Below, in pieces: positions 13,448 to 61,352 of a stretch of DNA of 64,000 nucleotides. How positions within the stretch are numbered: the first letter of the stretch is position 1; each line of letters starts with the position of its first letter. The notes under the pieces were generated by a model that worked only from the letters and a program-made list of their open reading frames with translations, was not told the DNA's origin and made no database searches. Both the position numbers and the translations under genes were made by a program. Source of the DNA: Topomyia yanbarensis (Eukaryota; Arthropoda; Insecta; Diptera; Culicidae); contig NC_080672.1 of NCBI RefSeq assembly GCF_030247195.1, forward strand, positions 392,477,037-392,541,036. Direction: 5' to 3'.

Positions 13448-15484
13448 TTAACATGATTTAATCTGTTCCACAATATTCCGCCACGTCACTCGGTCAGTTG
13501 CTGCTTGTCTCCAACCTCTCAGGTGCCTGATACTCGCCAGGTTCTGCTCCACTAGGTTCAGCCACCGGGAACGCTGCGCTCCTCTCCGTCTTGTACCCTC
13601 CGGGTTAGAGGTGAAAACCAACTTGGTGGGGTTGTTGTCCGGCATCCTCGCAACATGCCCTGCCCACCGTACCCTTCGAGCTTGAGCTACTTTCCGGATA
13701 CTTGGCTCACCATAGAGTCGCGCAAGTTCGTGGTTCATCCTTCTCATCCACACGCCATCCTCCTGCACACCGCCGAAGATCGTTCTCAGCACCATTCTTT
13801 CGAAGACTTCGAGTGCTTTCAGATCCTCCTCGAGCATTGTCCACGACTCGTGCCCGTAGAGAACCACCGGTCTAATCAGTGTGTTGTACATGGCGCATTT
13901 CGTGCGGTGGTGAAGCTTCCTTGATCTCAAAGTTTTGTGGAGCCCATAGTAAGCACGACTTCCAGAGATAATACGCCTTCTGATCTCCCGACTGGTGTTA
14001 TTGTCACCAATGAGCCTAGATAGATGAACTCGTCAACCACTTTGAACTCGTCGCCGTCGATCGTGATACTACTGCCCAAGCGCTCCCTATCGCGATTGGT
14101 TCCGCCAGCCAGCATGTACTTCGTCTTAGACACATTTATCTTCAGTCCTACTCGTTCTGCTTCGCGCTTCAGTCGGGTATACAGATCTGCTATTGTTTCC
14201 TTGTTTCTACCGATTATGTCCACGTCGTCAGCGAAGCACACGTACTGTCCGAACCTCGTGAAAATCGTGCCCCGCATGTTGAACCCCGCTCTTCGCATTA
14301 CACCTTCCAGCGCTATATTGAACAGCAGGCAGGACAACCCATCGCCTTGTCTTAGTCCCCTGCGTGTTTCAAACGGACCCGAGAGGCTGAAATTTTGACA
14401 CAACACCTTACACCATCCATTGTAGCCTTAATTAGTCTTATCAGCTTCCCAGGGAAGCCGTTCTCATCCATCATTTTCCATAGCTCCACACGGTCCACCG
14501 TGTCATATGCGGCTTTAAAGTCGATGAACAGGTGATGTGTCGGGACCTGGTATTCACGGCATTTTTGGAGGATTTGATCTGCCGTTGATGAAACCGGCCT
14601 GACAACTCCCGACAAATCCATTTACCAGCGGTGATAGGCGCCGGAACAGAATCTGGGATAGCACTTTGTAAGAGGCATTTGTCACTGTGATCGCTCTGTA
14701 GTTTTCACAGTCCAATTTGTCGCCTTTCTTGTATATCGGGGTGATGACCCGTTCCTTCCACTCCTCCGGTAGCTGTTCCCTGTCCCAGATTCTTTCGATT
14801 ATTCGGTGCATGCATTCCGCCAGTTTCTCCGGACCCACCTTGAAGAGTTCCGCTCCTAGACCATCCTTACCAACTGCCTTGTTGTTCTTGAGCTGTTGAA
14901 TAGCCTCGTTAACCTCATTCATAGTGGGCACCGGTACATCCCGTCAGCTGCGACACTGACATAATCGTCCTCCTCGAACGCCCGATTGTCGGCCTGCGCA
15001 CCATTCATATGTTCATTGTAGTACTGCCTCCACCTTTCGACCACCTCACGTTCGTCCGTCAAGATGCCTTCCTTGTCTCTGCACATTTCGGATCGCGGCA
15101 CAAAACCGTTGCGAGAGTCATTCAGCTTCTTGAAGAACGCCCGCGTTTCCTGAGAGCGATACAGCAGCTCCATCTCCTATCTCTGAGACTCTTCCAAGCG
15201 GCGCTTTTTGTCCTGAAAAAGACGAGTCTGCTGTTTTCGCTTCCGTCGATATGACTCCACGTTCTACCGAGTGGCTTCTCGTCCAATATCTCTTGGCACT
15301 CGCCATCGAACCAATCGTTCCGTCGACTCCTCTGTACGTATCCCAGGACGCTCTCCGCAGTGCTGCTTATGGCTGCTTTAGTCCTGGTCCAGCAGTTCTC
15401 AAGACGAGCATCGATGACCGCCATTATGGCATGTAAAAAGCTGAAAACATTGCGACCAGTAGGGACAAAACTTCTAGGATACAA
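13448..15484 (-). mobile_element. RTE-type LINE, nearly complete reverse transcriptase
   Basis: This is the best-preserved LINE in the window. From 15484 downward it has the endonuclease-RT linker (ETRAFFKKLNDSRNGF, DEREVVERWRQYYNEHMN), then NKAVGKDGLGAELFK at about 14880 and EWKERVITPIYKKGDKLDCE at about 14760. Next come HHLFIDFKAAYDTVDRVELW at about 14520 (motif A) and RRGLRQGDGLSCLLFNIALE at about 14350. FADDVDIIG at about 14225 is the catalytic FADD box. The C-terminal tail (NTLIRPVVLYGHESW, then VRWAGHVARMPD) ends at a stop at 13448. Frameshifts occur near 15170, 14935, 14600, 14390 and 13930. The endonuclease is absent, as expected after 5' truncation. It lies downstream of the kinase gene on the same strand. 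Confidence 0.9.
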
Positions 15485-17340: not shown

Positions 17341-20300
17341 CTAGTACGCATAGCTCACAACATGTCGCACCCGTTTGGGTCTTTGAATAGTGGCGCTGTT
17401 TATCGTGGGTCTTCGTTTACGCAGATTCCGCAGTGGATTCAGGGTATAACTGAGCACGTCGGTGGCCGGCGGGTTTGGATACAACATATCGGCTTCCTCG
17501 AACCCGCTGAAATAATAAACTTCATCGAATTCAAATCCAAACTCGATCTTTTCGACATCAATTGATGCTCGAGTTCCCGCAAATAGTGATTCTTCCGAGC
17601 AGGAGGAAATGTCGCGTTCAATCGATTCGTCCAACTCGGCCGATTCTACTTCCTCTTGAATGACAACAGCGGGAAGAAGGCTTTCCTTCTGTCGTCCGGT
17701 AATTTCTTCGAGTATTAACGGAACAGTTGCGCTACTTGTTTCACTACTGCACGATCCACTTCTCCGCACATTCATCTCGGGCCGTTGCTCGATTTCCTTT
17801 TTCCGTACTTCTTCCTCAACAACATCTTCAACATCCTGTAAAATTTGGTCCACCAAAAATTCGTCTATTTCCCCATCTTCTTCTTCGTCTTGTTCGTCGT
17901 TTTCCTCATCCGCATCCTCCGCAGCATCCGATTCCATCTTGTTCACCTCGTTATTATTGCTCTCGGCCCCGCCTGCCTGCTTCGACTCTTTTTGCAGTTC
18001 TTCCTGTTCACAGCGATCGTCGCTATCCGCCTCATCTATCACTACCACTTCAGAGTTATTGGTCGAAACACTTGCTGTTCGCTGGTTGTGGTCTGATATC
18101 GAGCTGCTCTTGCTGGACTTACTTCGACCAATACCACTGGACGTGCTTTCCTCCATAGAACTGCTGTATTGGCTCTCGGTTGACTTTTTGGACTTGGTTC
18201 CATTCGTACGCCGCTGATTCGTGTTCGCTCGGCTGACTTCCCGCAGTCGGAATCCTTCCTCCTCGGCTCGTTTAAATGCGTCGTACGTATTTTTCACGTT
18301 TGCTTCCAGCCGCCGCAAGCTCTGCTGCGGATATACCATTTTCAGCTGTCTTCGCACGCCCGCAGTTCGATTCAAATCGAGCCACTCGTGCACTAGCAGT
18401 AGCTCCATCGTTATTCGCCTGTCCGGATCCACCGTTAGCAAGCGTTTCACTAAGTCTTTGGCCTCTTCACTTACACATACCCATGCCGAGGACGCCAAAT
18501 CGAACGAACCTCGACGAATTTTACCTATAATTATCTCCATCTGTTTGGCGGATGAAGCGAGATTCGCGTGACCGAAAAATTGCCGCGGAGTAAACGGAGC
18601 CTGTCCACATAGCATGGTATACAGTATCACTCCTAGGGACCAGAGGTCGCTCGATTCCAGCGCATACGATCGACCGTCGAACACCTCCGGTGCAGAATAG
18701 CCGAGCGTTCCAGCGTTCGGCGATGAAGTCAGACAGTTGTTATTCTCTATACTTTTCGCGAAACCAAAATCTATCAGCTTCAAATGCTCCGAATGAGGTG
18801 CTTCGAACAGTACGTTCTCCGGTTTGAGATCACAGTGGGCAAAGCCCTTCTGGTGCATGAAGGCAACCGCCTGCACCATCTGACGGAAGTAATGGCGCGC
18901 TTGGCTTTCAGTAAAACTTTTGTTCTGGTTTATCCGATGCAGCAGCTCGCTTCCCTCCAACAGTTCCAGCACTATGTAGATGTGATGGGAGTCCTTCAGG
19001 ACTTCAACGAATTTAACTACGTTGGCGTGACCTTGGCAGGCTTTAAGGGCTTCAATTTCTTGCCTCGCGTACCCAGCCGTCTCCGGGTGATTGAAGAGTA
19101 CTTTTACTGCGTAGTAGTTGTTACTGCTACTACTATTACTACTGCTACTATTACTATTGTGACCGTTGTTGCTGCTATTGCTGGCGGAAGATGAAGATAG
19201 CCGGCGGCACTTGAAGCACACTGAGAAGATCCCATCGCCAATGGATTGGTCGGCCGTTAGTTCGTACTTTTTGTGGAACGGGGAGCTCTGGAAGATTTAA
19301 GATAAACGGATTAGTTTACTTGATTTGTGGAAGGTGTTATTTCAGAGTCTACCAAACACTGTATTTTGTTCGATTGGCGCTGAATTAACCCACCATACAT
19401 ACCTTGCTAACATATCGCCGAACAGCAGCTTCACTCGGTCTAGTATTCTTATTTCTCATGTACTTGTTTCTATCGACGACTTTACTCGACAGTAAACTAG
19501 GTGAAACGTATGAATAACCTGTCACAAATGAACAAAAAAGAACGATTAGCTTTATTACTTTTGTAATTCGACCGATTTGTATCACCTCGGAACAGCCGCT
19601 CCGAATTCGGTGGAGCCGACGCCGGCGTATCGACCGGTGTTTGCCGCGTGAACTCATCGCTGAAATTATTCGTATCCAGCTCATCCTCGATCACCGGTTT
19701 GAATGGTGCTGCAATCTTTTTTTCTGCCAAAAGTCGCCAGTTGATCGATTTAAAGAAGCTGTGTGATTTCAGTTCCGAAGCATCCGCCGTACCACCGCCC
19801 AATCGCCGCCGGGGATCCTTCACCAGCAGTTTCCGGATGAAATCTTTTGCTTCACGCGAAAGATGATCAGGGATTATCGCCTCGGTGTTTGTGATTTTCT
19901 TCGATATTTCCGATTGGGTGGCGGGTTCTTCTGAGCTGAACGGTGAGCTGCCGGTCAGCAGCTCAAACGTCAGTACACCTACCGACCACCAATCGACGGA
20001 CGAGTCGTGTCCGTTTTGGTTGGATTTCACAATCTCCGGTGCCATGTACTCGATGGTGCCACAGAAGCTGTGTGCCCGCTCATTCTCATATACCAGCTCC
20101 CTTGAGAGACCAAAATCGGTCAGCACGATGTGACCATCGGAATCGATTAATATGTTTTCCAGCTTAATGTCACGATAGATGATTCCCAACTGGAAAATTA
20201 TGTTCAAACATTCGATTAGTTTAAGATTCAATCGGAAAATTTTACCGCCAGTACATACCTTATGAAGTTGTTCCAGAGCAACAATTATCTCCGCTATATA

Positions 20301-21908
20301 AATCCGAACCTCATCTTCGGTGAAATGTTCCTTGTTGTACAGATGTGTGAACAATTCACCGCCACTCACATAATCAAGGATGATGTGCAACTTGGAATCC
20401 GTCTGGAAAGCGTAGTGCATCGTCACCAGAAAAGGTGATCGTTTGATTGATTCTAGGACCTGGCGAAAGAAGGATAAACATAAAGTAGGCCGAGTGCGAT
20501 ATGCAAACTGACAGGAATTCAATTTTTATTTTTACTCTGCGCATTTGGAATTTCATTATTAGGTTTTTAGAATTAAAACACTACAAACAGATGTCTTCCC
20601 GCCTATCCTCGGAGCCTTCAACGATATCTTTCCGGTAAAATGTGTAGCCAATCAGTTCAATTATTGACTCATATGGAATATTTTCTTTTTTCTTAGCAAC
20701 TGCGCGATATGCATGGAACCGGTACAAGATCAACAAAAATTTCTGACATGTGCTCATCTTTTCCACGAGCCTTGCATCGACAAGTGGCTGGCGAGAAAGG
20801 GAATTTGTCCTGTTTGTCGAAATGAAGAGATTCCGCCCAAGAAAGTAGAAGAGACCCGATCGCGTTCCACCAATCGTGGCCAAAGGGTGATTGTAGCGGG
20901 GCCCACTATGTTACGACTGCGCCAGGTATCGGTGCAAGCACGGCGACAAGACAGGCGAACACGGCCTACCAGAACCCCCGCCAGATCTCGTTCCCGCAGA
21001 AGAGCGCGTTCACCTTAGAAGATCATCCAAGTCAAAATCTAAACATTTTAAATTATATTTGTATTTTTGTTATGCCTTTTATGCTATAAATATTGCAGGA
21101 CGATTAAAATCTTTATTCTTTTTATTTATTACCTTATTTTCATCATTATGGATAGTAACCATCTTTTGTTTGTAATAACTTCAATTTCAATTACAATTCT
21201 GGAAGAGCACACTCTTTTCCCTATATATTAACCCTCCGGAAGTCGCGCAAATGACTCACTGATCGAGCACCCGCTGGTGCCCTCAGACAATTTCGCTAGA
21301 TTTTCAGAGCAGCGTGCACTCAGTGCACTAGCACGACTCCCGGAACGTTAAGTTTGAGTACACGGGGCCAATGTCGGCTGAACAAAAATGAAATACTTTT
21401 TCTTCGACATTAGCATCAACAACGTGCAAATCAAGATCGTCAACTGAAGGCCTAGCAGATGGTAATGTAACAATTCGGGGGAGCTACGACGAGGTTGTAG
21501 TTTATCGTTAAAATCCATATCGATTATTCACAAATGTTAATTGATATTGGCCAAGAACGGAGCAAAAGCTCATGAGTGGTCTCTTAAAGCTAATAACTAA
21601 GACTTAATAATTAGCCTATACACATACCTGCCGCTCAGTTTTTGTATGTTCGGCTGTCTTTTTCTTCTGACAGATTGTAGACTTCTTCAGCACCTTCATC
21701 GCATACAGTTTGTTGTGGTCGACGCCTCCCAGTTTCCGAACCAGAAATACTTTTCCGTAAGCTAGAATGCAGTAAGTTTTGTTTAAAGATATCGTTGGCA
21801 ATAACGTTTGAAGTGCTCAATATGGACAAACCAACTTACCACCGGTTCCGAGAACCTTGAGTAGCTTAAAGTCATCTATGGTGACAGTATCCTCCTCGCA
21901 GAGTTTGA
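17341..21908 (-). CDS. JIL-1: JIL-1/MSK-type tandem Ser/Thr kinase (5' exons missing)
   Basis: Six exons on the minus strand join in one frame: 21908-21840, 21761-21628, 20459-20259, 20189-19586, 19518-19403 and 19287-17341. The introns of 78, 1168, 69, 67 and 115 nt are all GT-AG. They encode about 1,022 residues. The first domain (residues about 12-270) is an AGC kinase: GTGAYGKVFLVRK loop, AMKVLKK lysine, YRDIKLEN, DFG, and SFCGTIEYMAPE with the activation-loop Ser. The linker carries the hydrophobic motif FRGYSYVSPS. The second domain (about 378-670) is CaMK-like, with GDGIFSV, YAVKVL, HCDLKPEN, DFGFAKS and GTLGYSAPE. A Ser/Asn-rich insert of 27 residues sits between its glycine loop and VAVK lysine. 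The tail is Ser-rich, then strongly acidic (about 800-830), and ends in a basic NLRKRRPT/RPKRVRH patch. This order matches MSK1/2 and Drosophila JIL-1, the interphase histone H3 Ser10 kinase. JIL-1 is preferred because of the acidic-basic tail. The N-terminal exon or exons upstream of 21908 were not found. Confidence 0.93.
20591..21018 (+). CDS. Small RING-H2 zinc-finger protein (putative E3 ligase), nested gene
   Basis: Two exons, 20591-20634 and 20697-21018, are joined across a 62-nt GT-AG intron with a TTTTCTTTTTTCTTAG acceptor. They give an uninterrupted 121-residue protein. The start ATG at 20591 yields MSSRLSSEPSTISF, and the splice completes the codon R15 directly before the finger. 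Reading through the intron would hit a stop. The finger, starting CAICMEPVQ, has spacing C-x2-C-x12-C-x1-H-x2-H-x2-C-x10-C-x2-C. This is the RING-H2 (C3H2C3) pattern, and members of the class are usually E2-dependent ubiquitin ligases. The rest (residues about 57-121) is Arg/Ser/Thr-rich and ends SRSRRRARSP, probably disordered or nuclear. There is no membrane segment. It lies on the opposite strand inside the 1,168-nt intron of the kinase gene. I do not recognise a specific orthologue. The intron argues against a processed pseudogene. Confidence 0.75.
21228..21351. mobile_element. TTAA-flanked MITE, copy A (124 bp) in kinase intron
   Basis: TTAA duplications bound a 116-bp core starting CCCTCCGGAAGTCGCG and ending with its imperfect inverse. 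The interior has GTGCACTCAGTGCAC, a short palindrome. TTAA targets plus CCC ends suggest a piggyBac-related non-autonomous element. A second copy is at 26791-26914. Confidence 0.85.
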
Positions 21909-28440: not shown

Positions 28441-29064
28441 AGGTTATGAACCCACTGGTTATTGAAAATTTAGAAGGGTTTGTTCGGTATCGAAAACCAG
28501 ATTTATGGCAGTATGTTTCAATCCTATGGCTCCAAGTAATAATCTTTCTGCGTATGCTTCCATCCACGCCAATTTACAAGTTTCAGGTTTGTGCCTTTTG
28601 CGCATTGGTTTACTGGCTAAAACAAGTTGTGGTTTAGACATGACTTATCAACAAGCACAACTTCTTCCCTTACAAGATATCGTAAGCTGAGAGTCGTTTA
28701 GTGTGTTCACAAGTAGTGCTTTTAGTAGTCAAGTGCCATGGTTCTGCAGAGGCGAACCCGCAGCGCAAACCCGTGAACTTATGTAATTAGGTTTTGTACT
28801 CTTTAAGCAATACGTTTTTTTTGAACAAATTTTTTCCTTAGGGAGAAATATTGCATATCATTTTGATTTAAGTAAATATTTAAATACTTACAAAATGGTT
28901 CGGTAAGTAAGAGTAGTGCTTAGGATTGAAACAGAATGTCAACAGTGCGAGTCAGACGATTCCGAGTCTTACTCCCCAAATAATACAATACTCACTAAAT
29001 TCCGTTTGGCCATTTTCGGACCGGAAAGAAACTGGTTAATACTGAAACTTTTTCGAGACCTGAC
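28441..29064. other. Spacer, nothing recognised
   Basis: No coding homology or repeat structure visible. Confidence 0.45.
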
Positions 29065-49199: not shown

Positions 49200-49362
49200 T
49201 ATTATTTAGACAGAGAAAGAATGACCGGAACGGTGAGAATAAAGAAACGGTGAAAATTCACCTTTATTGGAAACACTGAGAAAAGATATGTCCTCAAGCA
49301 GGAATCGAACCTGCGATCTACCAGTCTATAGTTGGGTGCGTTAACCACTCCGCCATCGAGGA
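49200..49362 (-). mobile_element. tRNA-headed SINE
   Basis: The minus strand at 49362-49291 folds like a tRNA. It has a 7-bp acceptor stem (TCCTCGA/TTGAGGA, one G-T pair), a GCG/CGC D stem with the GAGTGGTTAA loop, and a CTATAGA anticodon-like loop. The T arm is GCAGGTTCGATTCCTGC. The anticodon stem has mismatches, so it is not a normal tRNA gene. A body of about 90 bp (ATATCTTTTCTCAG, CAATAAAGGTGAA) follows. Confidence 0.65.
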
Positions 49363-57760: not shown

Positions 57761-58362
57761 TAGAGTTTATGACATTTCAGAGCTCATGATCTTAGTCAAA
57801 CGATTGTTGTAATTTCTATTCACGATATCGTGAGATTTTAGTCAAAAGTTGAGTTATGTGTTTTCATGCTTTCATGGTCGTAGTCCCTCTTTTTAATATT
57901 TTAGTCGAATTTTTCACTCGGAGTAACGTGGCAATACGAACTAAGTCTTTCTGACTGATTCGCGGTATACTGTTTTGTGAACTATATTACGAACACGATT
58001 TGTGGTTCTGTAATGTAATTTTGGTGTTCAGTGCAGTTCTGTCGGGACATCACACTGAACCTTATCGCATGAATAACGATGTTCAAGGCCCTAGTTGTTT
58101 TCGTACAGCTGCTGCTCACACGCTAGCAGCTGGGCTTAACTCAAAATTTTGTGAAATAGTTCACGTGAAAATTTCATGACCATGTACAGATTTGCTTGAA
58201 ATTGAAAATGATTAGGGATATCTTCTAAATATCACAAGCACTTAAGATAGATCGTGAATCATGTACTATGCATCATGAAACAGTCCACGTTTCCATGCAT
58301 ATTTCACGATTTTGTGAACTATTTTGTTGGAACACATGATCAGGCGTAAATATTATACTTAG

Positions 58363-58437
58363 TTGCGTTTCGGCTTCGCCTCATCAGAAACCGACACTAA
58401 CTTATTGTCGGAATAGATTAGCGCCGGCTTGACGCAA
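58363..58437 (-). ncRNA. Hammerhead ribozyme, type III (left arm, minus strand)
   Basis: Read on minus: TTGCGT, C (cleavage base), a 13-bp stem I beginning AAGCCGGC, CTGATGA, stem II GGC-GAA-GCC, then GAAA and CGCAA. Stem III (TTGCGT with ACGCAA) has 6 bp. Every core nucleotide of the hammerhead consensus (CUGAUGA, GAAA, GUC) is present. Predicted cleavage is 3' of the base complementary to 58431. Confidence 0.8.
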
Positions 58438-58735
58438 ATCCCTCAAAACTAAAACACACTTTGTGTTTCAATCGAACGACTGATCAAACGTGATGTCCCG
58501 TTCGAGCAGAAGTTCTGTTAATGCCGATGAGACACAAAAAAGCCGAAACTTGTCTTGGCTTAGCAGGCCTATGCGAAAGCATAGCATAGTGCTTTCGCAT
58601 AGGCCTGCTAAGCCAAGACAAGTTTCGGCTTCACTGTGTCTCATCGGCATAAACAGAACTTCTGCTCGAACGGGACATCACGTTTGATCAGTCGTTCGAT
58701 TGAAACACAAAGTGTGTTTTAGTTTTGAGGGATTA

Positions 58736-58806
58736 GCGTCAAGCCGGCGCTAATCTATTCCGACAATAAGTTAGTGTCGGTTTCTGATGAGGCGAAGCCG
58801 AAACGC
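58736..58806 (+). ncRNA. Hammerhead ribozyme, type III (right arm, plus strand)
   Basis: GCGT at 58736-58739 pairs with ACGC at 58803-58806 (stem III, 4 bp). The cleavage base is C58740. Stem I pairs 58741-58753 (AAGCCGGCGCTAA) with 58771-58783 (TTAGTGTCGGTTT), 13 bp with three G-T pairs. CTGATGA is at 58784-58790, stem II GGC-GAA-GCC at 58791-58799 and GAAA at 58800-58803. Stem III is 2 bp shorter than in the left copy, because TTGCG became TAGCG, so this copy may cleave less well. Confidence 0.78.
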
Positions 58807-59950
58807 AACTAAGTATGATATAAGGATATGTGCCCTCCTGTACAAAGACTGGTTCTACCAAAAAAATTTCACCCTAGTGGTAAATTTTGGTTTTTACCAA
58901 ATTTTCCTCCTTAGGGTGAAATATAGCATAGTAAATATTATACCAGTTCATGTTTTCATTAATAAGATTTCATGATTTTGTGAATTATTTCACGAGCACG
59001 AATTATGAGTTATAACTAATATACTAAAAACCGTGAACCAGTTCACAAATACAGAACATTTCATGATTTCGTGAACTATTGTCCGAGCACGAATGATGAG
59101 TCGTGTCTTACTCGCTAGGAATCATAAATGTGTTCTCAAATACATGATTATGTTCCGATTTTGTGAACTATTTCCTGAGCACAAATGGTCAGTCGTGACT
59201 ATTAACAAGAAATTATGAAGTAGTTTTCGAATAATTGAACAACATTTCATTATTTTTTCTCGAATACATCAATAATATTTTATGATATTGTGAACTACTC
59301 CACGAGAACGAATGGTGAATCGTGGCTAATTCGCTAGAAATCATGAATCAGTTCGCGTATACATGATATTTTATGATTTTGTGAACTATTTCGCGAGCAC
59401 GGATACTGAATCGTGACTAATATATTAGGTATCATGAACTAGCTCACGAGTGAAGGGAAACATGAATAATATTCCGAGTTTCGTGAAATAGTTCACGAGA
59501 AAATGTTTTGATTTTGTGAAAATAACTCACAACCACGAAACCAGATTATGTTCAAGATGTAATAAATCATGAATCAGCTCACGTCGTATAGTTAGACTCT
59601 GAATAATGTTCCCAAATCTATGAATAAAATCATAACACCTTTGGTTTTTTGAATAACGTTCATAAAGTTGTGCAATAGTTAACGTACAGAAAATCGATTT
59701 GGGGAAAAAACATGGCAGAAACCGCGGATGACGTTCACAACACCAAAATAAATATCTCCAATAATAGAAGCGTTATGCAGGCGTTACTGAAAAAAAATTG
59801 AAATAAACACATTATTTTTGTTCATAGTCCAATTTTTGTAACGTAAATAACGTGATTGTTCCAGAATCTATGTCTCTTTATTCACGATTTTGGGAACAGT
59901 TTTTTCCGTGCTCACATTAACGATATCGGAGAAATGTCAGCCGTCTATCT

Positions 59951-60365
59951 CAACGTAGTCGATTTGGGAGCACGTTTCGCCATTCAGGTGTCCCCAATTG
60001 TAGTCTCGAATATTCTTTGCATATAACCATGCCGGTTAGATTGATCAACCTCCAGGTGTTATCGCTGGTTGTTGAGCGGAGGCTCTAGTTTACAATTACA
60101 GGACGAAAGGATTCTTCCTTCCGATCTACGCATTCGCATCCCCGATTATGAGTTTTACGTCACTCTCCGCAGGTTTTGTCTAGATGGTCATAGAACTCAT
60201 CTTTCATATCATCGGGTTTGTCATTTATCGACGCGAAGTCGTTGATCAGGTTATAGGTATAGCATTTCCTCTGATACAGTCCGGCACATATAATTTATAT
60301 AGAATTTTGCAGGATTTGCTCTCTACTTCCAGCTTCAAACTTTTTTGGCTGCCGTTTTGAACATT
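59951..60365. other. Spacer, nothing recognised
   Basis: No coding or repeat homology that I can support. Confidence 0.4.
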
Positions 60366-60400
60366 TAAAAGTTGTTTGAGAGAAAAGTTGGGTTAGATCA

Positions 60401-60547
60401 GGGGAACGGGCATGGCTTAGCTGGTACATCTATTGCCTTGTAAGCAACTCACCTAGGGTCGATTCCCAACTCCGCACATGGCAGAGATTTTCCTAAAGAG
60501 ATTTTTCTCACCCGAAAAAGTGATAAATGACCTTAAGGATAAAGCCT
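60401..60547 (+). mobile_element. tRNA-derived SINE, copy 2
   Basis: Box A-like TGGCTTAGCTGG at 60413-60424 and box B GGTCGATTCCC at 60457-60467 are followed by the shared SINE body (AGAGATTTTTCTCACCCGAA, CCTTAAGGATAAAGCC). It matches 38827 and 60829. Confidence 0.85.
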
Positions 60548-60828
60548 ATATATTTTTTTTCGAGAGTTGTTCTGCTGGAGAGCTAGGTTCTCACTTGTTA
60601 TGTCCAATTTCAGATATATGGGATCTCACGATCGCGTGTATCGTCATAAAGGGCTCGAGCGTTTGCACGTTAACGTGTTCGATCGCGTGGGCGTTTGTAT
60701 GTCGCGTGTGCTAGTGTGTATGTAACTTCGCGTGTATAATTTTGATTTTATTACAGTGTGCCAATTCGCATATTCGCGTTTGTTCTTGTTTTTTAAAAGT
60801 TGTTTGAGAGAAAAGTTGGGTTAGATCA

Positions 60829-60976
60829 GGGGAACGGGCATGACTTAGCTGGTAGATCTATTGCCTTGTAAGCAACTCACCTAGGAACGATTCCCAACTC
60901 CGCACATGGCAGAGATTTTCCTAAAGAGATTTTTCTCACCCGAAAAAGTGGTAAATGACCTTAAGGATAAAGCCTA
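60829..60976 (+). mobile_element. tRNA-derived SINE, copy 3
   Basis: Nearly identical to copy 2, with TGACTTAGCTGG for box A and AACGATTCCC for a weakened box B. It arose by the segmental duplication rather than by a separate insertion. Confidence 0.85.
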
Positions 60977-61352
60977 TATAATTTTTTTTCGAGAGCTGTC
61001 CTGCTGGAGCTGGAGAGCTAGGTTCTCACTTGTTACGTCTAATTTCACATGTATGGGACCTCACGATCGCGTGTATCGTCATAAAGAGATCGAGCGTTTG
61101 CACGTTAACGTGTTCGATCGCGTGGGCGTCTGTATGTCGCGTGTGCTAGTGTGTATGTAACTTCGCGTGTATAAATTCGATTTTGTTACAGTGTGCCAAT
61201 TTGCATATTCGTGTTTGTTTTTGAATGATCGCGCGCAAAGCCCTGAATCTGATACTTAATTTTCGTTATACGGCTCAGATGCTAGAAGAGAGTGAGTTCT
61301 TCCATATCACTAGAGTTCCTGGTCATGTCGCTATGGAACGTGTTGTCTAGTG

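Follow-up and report, generated by a model that had tools for sequence, protein, structure and literature searches.

The window analysed here is a stretch of 64,000 nucleotides from the genome of Topomyia yanbarensis, and the element under study is located towards its right end (Table 1). An exact 13-bp repeat on either side delimits an insertion of 58359-58930, which therefore includes the sequence to the right of a long palindrome. The insertion is composed of two head-to-head pieces, which read as cDNAs of one 342-nt unit (numbered u1-u342) in opposite senses. The match of piece 1 to the unit continues to approximately u231 within the left target repeat, and the last two letters of the unit are common to the right target repeat. 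Since the central ten letters are identical to the last ten of the unit, the right piece, with 352 nt, is longer than the 342-nt unit itself, and the template must have been circular or multimeric. The whole insertion is situated inside an array of degenerate repeats with a spacing of ~91 bp (TTTTGTGAACTATTTC..., 57973-59600), and its empty site is compatible with one unit of this array.

Table 1. Parts of the insertion and of the 342-nt unit (positions in the window; u, position in the unit)
Feature	Position	Strand	Remarks
Left target-site repeat	58346..58358	no strand	GTAAATATTATAC; 13-bp exact repeat
Piece 1	58359..58580	-	cDNA, minus sense, u1 to u222; end at site A
Left-arm hammerhead	58363..58437	-	u144-u218; 6-bp stem III; predicted cleavage between 58431 and 58430; found by descriptor
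Piece 2	58581..58930	+	cDNA, plus sense, u333-u342 then u1-u340; end at site B
Central 10 nt	58581..58590	+	ATAGCATAGT; identical to u333-u342 (58923-58932)
342-nt unit	58591..58932	+	u1-u342; direct copies elsewhere spaced 342-344 bp
Right-arm hammerhead	58734..58808	+	u144-u218; 4-bp stem III; predicted cleavage between 58740 and 58741; found by descriptor
Site A	58813..58821	+	GTATGATAT; u223-u231
Stretch between sites A and B	58822..58930	+	beyond the palindrome; imperfect hairpin
Site B	58923..58932	+	ATAGCATAGT; u333-u342
Right target-site repeat	58931..58943	no strand	GTAAATATTATAC; 13-bp exact repeat

A palindrome with near-identical arms had been noted in a preliminary description of the locus, and is confirmed as an inverted repeat of 58350-58821, with arms of 232 nt each (58350-58581 and 58590-58821) that are 97% complementary and separated by an 8-nt spacer. 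Positions 58350-58358 have a double role, being part of the left target repeat and, in eight of nine letters, of the inverted repeat. The arms of the window copy differ at six positions over u1-231, one more than originally counted. Five of these are private to one arm when compared to the family and the sixth (u227) is inside the target repeat; the earlier conclusion that the arms have diverged since their formation still holds. It had also been suggested that the palindrome is a head-to-head dimer of a small ribozyme-bearing retroelement, or is derived from circular RNA. The head-to-head arrangement, the small retroelement and the circular or multimeric template are all retained, whereas the palindrome is not itself the unit, because the insertion bounded by the 13-bp target repeats extends to 58930. 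Furthermore, the unit contains one hammerhead only, at u144-u218, with cleavage predicted at u150|u151. Both arms were copied as cDNA from the same RNA strand, which means one ribozyme in each unit and no two-ribozyme design.

The complete type III hammerhead that had been proposed for each arm was found in both by a structural descriptor, which with looser limits gave no match in 20 Mb of first-order Markov sequence (one strand). Each arm encodes the GUC, a 14-bp stem I with four G.U pairs, CUGAUGA, a stem II of only 3 bp closed by a triloop, and GAAA. These parts, and a stem III of 4 or 6 bp, agree with the preliminary description, apart from stem I, which had been given as 13 bp. The 4-bp stem III of the right arm is a private mutation, as u145 is an A there, whereas all 99 other aligned copies have a T. 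A competing fold is often predicted for the hammerhead, and no contact between its loops was identified. In a predicted circular fold, u31-57 pairs with the core and could possibly switch the ribozyme off. The idea of a decayed second ribozyme within the arm was unsupported, its score being reached in 96 of 2000 shuffles, and in 456 of 2000 when the gap costs were changed; in the predicted circular fold, the stretch concerned would pair with the core of the ribozyme. Upstream of the hammerhead, 58634-58711 aligns with it (TGTGTC ... TTGATCA ... GAAACACA), with a broken core and probably by chance.

The search for relatives covered the same genome assembly (1.168 Gb, 1044 contigs). With the palindrome arm as query, at least 51 matches of 92-100% identity were obtained (40 of 1040 candidates scored), and a 26-nt hammerhead core was found 5,318 times genome-wide when up to one mismatch was allowed, compared to none for the reversed pattern. 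The first 100 core matches listed, all exact and all on one contig, represent 67 loci. Neighbouring cores within 2 kb among these 100 are divergent in 19 cases, direct at 342-344 bp in 14 and convergent in none. Two divergent copies had been regarded as unusual, but in this listed sample they make up 19 of the 33 neighbouring pairs. Direct tandem copies, which it had been recommended to look for, are thereby found in the same genome. A decayed older copy of the family, with matches of 27 nt (81%) and 40 nt (85%) to the unit and a destroyed core, is present in the window at 28742-28857. Phage records gave nothing beyond 8% coverage at E 6.

Two sets of loci were used for comparison. Set 1 consists of 40 loci that resemble the arm of the window copy, and set 2 of the 40 that come first among the 67 listed loci, all from one contig. 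After removal of L027, L046 and L063, which have the same flanks as L026, L045 and L062, and of L084, which is the same locus as L044, 76 insertions remained, the window copy itself (L047) being counted among them. Some pieces exceed one unit, with 911 and 494 nt in L032 and 747 nt in L033, and u342 is seen to continue into u1.

The preliminary description had proposed a search with the Rfam type III models and had held that scores below threshold on both strands would refute the observation. Formally, this is the outcome: each arm scored 18.7 bits with Hammerhead_3 (RF00008), below the gathering score of 48.5, and no hit reached the threshold. On a sister copy, the Rfam register makes use of another GUC, with stem I nearly absent. 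We consider this shortfall to be outweighed by compensatory changes in stems I and II and by the starts of genomic pieces at the predicted cleavage site. The hammerhead structure cells are paired to 93.5% in nine distinct sequences, compared to at most 44.4% with the partners slid by 1-3 columns. Compensatory changes were seen in three pairs (two in stem I, one in stem II), carried by two older copies; their number was reached in 29 of 500 shuffles and the covariation score in 1 of 500, and as the two older copies may represent one lineage, we count the covariation events as few.

A total of 14 out of 119 pieces start at u149-153, the predicted cleavage site (P 3e-9; 8/58 in set 1 and 6/63 in set 2), and this is the top 5-nt window of the unit for piece starts, tied with a neighbouring window. 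Smaller clusters of starts are found at u273-277 (eight) and u338-342 (seven), and the cleavage site of the Rfam register (u186-191) has 2 of 123. On the family evidence, the register of the descriptor is to be preferred to that of Rfam. Starts at the predicted site suggest that the hammerhead is cleaved in vivo. If stem I merely arrested reverse transcription, the stops would be expected on the 3' side of the stem, and starts at u151 would therefore point to an RNA that had been cleaved. A hammerhead model was also built from ten sequences; the right arm of the window is among them, so the scores of this model for the window are no independent test. Very divergent hammerhead relatives were detected with it in L058 (1549-1638 and 2288-2340; 30.4 and 20.6 bits), and another, by profile only, in L085 (465-512), suggesting an old and larger family.

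In set 1, 27 of 38 insertions are bordered by target repeats of 8 bp or longer, and in set 2 the same is true of 31 of 39 (L063 still counted); the corresponding values for mispaired flanks are 5% and 6%. Wider search windows raised this to 59 of the 76 insertions, with a repeat length of 11 bp in 22, 12 bp in 15 and 13 bp in 8 (11-13 bp in 45/59). The outer ends are of two types: end A, which in sense orientation reads ...GTATGA and is located at ~u228, and end B, ...ATAGCATAGT, at ~u342. When typed automatically through alignment, 48 of the 59 insertions were A/B, eight B only, three A only, and none A/A or B/B. The single-end cases L039 and L054 (B only) and L060 (A only) look by eye like chance repeats. 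An earlier pattern-based typing, which gave five "AA" and one "BB", was replaced, as it confused A and B through their common letters CATAGT. Both outer ends are 3' ends of the same RNA strand, and the divergent layout is thereby forced.

The target has a palindromic tendency, with AAC|A at the left edge and the same at the right edge on the other strand. A C precedes the cut in 35/59 insertions on the left and 31/59 on the right, and an A follows it in 33/59 and 32/59; exact AAC at the left edge is found in 15/59 and GTT at the right edge in 13/59. The motif is a preference and no rule, and the target of the window copy fits it partially. A 9-nt complementarity to the target at the left junction was considered for primer placement and dropped, as the same end occurs with unrelated targets at other loci.

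The divergence between the two opposite pieces within an insertion is 2.0% (32 insertions), compared to 3.8% for copies from different insertions. No difference at all was seen between the opposite pieces of L053, L071 and L087. Set 2 shows this contrast clearly (1.9 vs 3.7%), set 1 weakly (2.3 vs 3.0%). Over u1-228, tandem copies within one piece differ by 2.4% (19 pairs), opposite pieces by 1.6% and different insertions by 3.6%. The pieces that exceed one unit establish a template longer than one unit for the family, whereas divergence does not tell a circle from a multimer. Tandem copies within a piece differ more than opposite pieces do, which would not be expected if a single closed circle had been copied repeatedly; a multimeric RNA of unequal units is therefore at least as likely as a closed RNA circle.

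Metazoan non-LTR retrozymes have been described as small non-coding RNAs of ~170-400 nt with a type I hammerhead, tandem copies and no LTR (PMC7229834). The present family is similar in having a small non-coding hammerhead unit in direct tandem and no LTR, and retrotransposed copies with target repeats (59/76). However, its hammerhead is of type III instead of type I, and it is consequently termed retrozyme-like here and not a metazoan retrozyme as described. Divergent two-ended insertions with fixed A and B ends are not mentioned for metazoan retrozymes in the available text of the same source. The type III hammerhead and a proposed circular RNA intermediate are shared with the plant LTR retrozymes, which differ in their size of ~600-1000 bp, their LTRs with PBS and PPT, and their 4-bp target repeats (PMC7229834; PMC7761336). 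Insects with type III hammerheads have been mentioned in passing (PMC7761336). Furthermore, hammerheads were reported in 2011 from interspersed repeats of Aedes aegypti, which are likewise high-copy repeats of a mosquito (PMC3088659) and may be related to this family. In the published example from Aedes aegypti, loop III is closed and palindromic and a dimer is required, whereas stem III is open here. Our literature search, covering titles, abstracts and partial texts, returned no description of this two-ended hammerhead arrangement.

Penelope-like elements (PLEs) offer a closer parallel for the mode of insertion. Those of a rotifer have head-to-head inverted repeats, target repeats of 8-10 bp and an optional tail on one repeat (PMC3846280). 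Cleavage and extension of both strands have been described for the PLE protein PAc, with internal starts at two sites that show no difference between top and bottom strand (PMC11167929). The hammerhead family resembles endonuclease-bearing PLEs in its head-to-head inverted repeats, of which one inverted end is extended, in the priming of both target strands, in the internal start sites and in having a hammerhead nearby (PMC3846280; PMC11167929). With both target strands primed, head-to-head pieces and one end extended, a PLE-like insertion mode of the hammerhead element is well supported. There are also differences. Target repeats are mostly 11-13 bp here and ~8-10 bp in published PLEs (PMC3846280), and the extension is ~110 nt compared to 30-40 (PMC3846280; PMC11167929). 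Start sites A and B are restricted to opposite strands, in contrast to those of PAc (PMC11167929). The hammerhead is of type III with a long stem I instead of a minimal type I, and the unit has no reading frame (PMC3846280; PMC11167929). As 342 nt is too short for a reverse transcriptase and GIY-YIG frame, the unit is not a PLE and is at best a non-autonomous passenger.

A GIY-YIG search of the genome revealed at least five matches (150 of 439 candidates scored), all of one PLE family. L094, L095, L096 and L098 contain pieces of a Penelope-like reading frame, and Pfam identified RVT_1 and GIY-YIG on L098. L097 matches the same PLE and is divergent, with one short end, another end ~40 nt further in intact sequence, and a 13-bp repeat. 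At L095, the repeat of the PLE is 11 bp long and has GTT on its right, AAC being missing on the left, and no target repeat longer than 6 bp was found at L094, L096 and L098 (three of the five PLE loci). Only one of the four edges at the two repeat-bearing PLE loci fits GTT/AAC, namely the right flank of L095. The unit and the L095 PLE have no sequence in common beyond 11-nt words. In L095, a 35-nt stretch that matches the hammerhead (80%) precedes the PLE by ~300 bp and is probably a neighbouring old copy. At L095 6063-6110, a minimal type I-like hammerhead motif with a palindromic stem III was seen by eye in the PLE repeat; Rfam gave no match for it.

We propose, with a probability of roughly 0.68, that the locus is one insertion of a non-coding, retrozyme-like unit of ~342-344 nt that carries one type III hammerhead, most likely made by a PLE enzyme. 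Tandem genomic copies would give rise to a multimeric RNA, which the hammerhead probably cuts between u150 and u151, as supported by the genomic piece starts. This RNA would then serve as template, in linear or circular form; pieces longer than one unit speak for its length, and a closed circle is one way to account for it. A symmetric, probably dimeric endonuclease would cut both target strands near AAC|A ... |GTT and leave 3' overhangs of mostly 11-13 nt, consistent with the repeat lengths and the motif. As the ends show, one target strand primes cDNA at site A (~u228) and the other at site B (~u342) on RNA of the same sense. The two cDNAs, each extending towards the 5' side of the RNA, would be joined head to head, and a palindrome with outward-facing hammerheads would result where both copy the same part, as in the window. 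The enzyme most likely stems from a Penelope-like element, copies of which are present in the genome, and we infer that the hammerhead element uses this genome's own PLE. Counting against this reading are the missing sequence link between unit and PLE, the poor fit of the PLE edges and the three PLE loci with no repeat above 6 bp, the separation of A and B in contrast to the start sites of PAc, the partial fit of the window target to a motif that is a preference only, the divergence of tandem copies, the Rfam scores below threshold and the other start clusters.

A more specific proposal is that a small hammerhead RNA parasitises the PLE enzyme. A dimer would bind one RNA at two internal start sites, cut the target symmetrically and make one cDNA per target strand in a single event. 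Insertions that are divergent and often palindromic would then be the normal product, and the ribozyme cut would be recorded as the 5' end of many cDNAs. We put this forward tentatively, at slightly under even odds.

Alternatively, LINE-type machinery could have moved the same hammerhead retroelement, with the palindrome as a product of ordinary twin priming. Twin priming is known for L1, and LINE insertions are also known with inverted 5' pieces and target repeats of 8-14 bp; a LINE-like reverse-transcriptase remnant is present in the window, and the lack of a sequence link to the PLE agrees with this view as well. We nevertheless find it unlikely, since the outer ends are fixed at A and B with no A/A or B/B among 59 insertions, the target is symmetric, 45 of 59 repeats fall within the narrow range of 11-13 bp, and none of the insertion ends inspected carried poly-A. 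It is more doubtful still that the hammerhead-like letters are due to chance or are an inactive fossil in a family that spreads for other reasons. The sub-threshold Rfam scores, the competing fold, and a 3-bp stem II with no loop-loop contact identified would agree with such a fossil, but it leaves the absence of descriptor matches in 20 Mb, the compensatory changes (29/500 shuffles for pairs, 1/500 for the covariation score) and the accumulation of piece starts (14 of 119) where cleavage is predicted unaccounted for.

A fold-back or MITE-type DNA transposon, with a hammerhead by chance in its terminal inverted repeats, was the first structural idea; a long inverted repeat, a high copy number and target repeats are features that such an element would share. 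It was dropped because of the 13-bp repeat outside the palindrome and the layout of the other copies, and is already contradicted: outer ends A and B differ, arm lengths are unequal between loci, direct tandems occur at 342-344 bp, and in the window the target repeats flank a longer stretch than the palindrome. We regard it as very improbable. Palindromes are sometimes assembly artefacts, and one could likewise imagine a late local inversion-duplication of a single copy. Either would have to explain six arm differences in the window copy and unequal divergent pieces with A and B ends at many loci, each with target repeats of its own, and this explanation is the least credible of all.

If the PLE-parasite reading is true, it would identify the machinery by which at least one animal retrozyme is spread, and it would show the ribozyme of this retrozyme at work in the animal. 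The proposed insertion of a retrozyme-like unit by a PLE enzyme bears on which enzyme spreads animal hammerhead retrozymes in general, and on whether their ribozymes cut in the animal. The family, with its thousands of copies, is suited to such questions, as both ends, the target repeats and the cleavage-site starts can be read from the genome. It also provides a testable enzyme candidate, the GIY-YIG PLE of the same genome, and a concrete model, with a single RNA on which the two strands of one target cut are both primed.

Several other features were noted in the window. At 60364-61223, a 435-bp unit that looks by eye like a tRNA-derived SINE is present twice in direct tandem, the two copies being 93% alike. 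The minus strand carries the LINE-like reverse-transcriptase remnant (RVT_1) at 13927-14406 and, at 17341-20522, two protein-kinase reading frames that by eye look like two domains of one kinase gene. A tRNA-like gene on the minus strand, at 49290-49362, is the sole match in the window at Rfam gathering scores.
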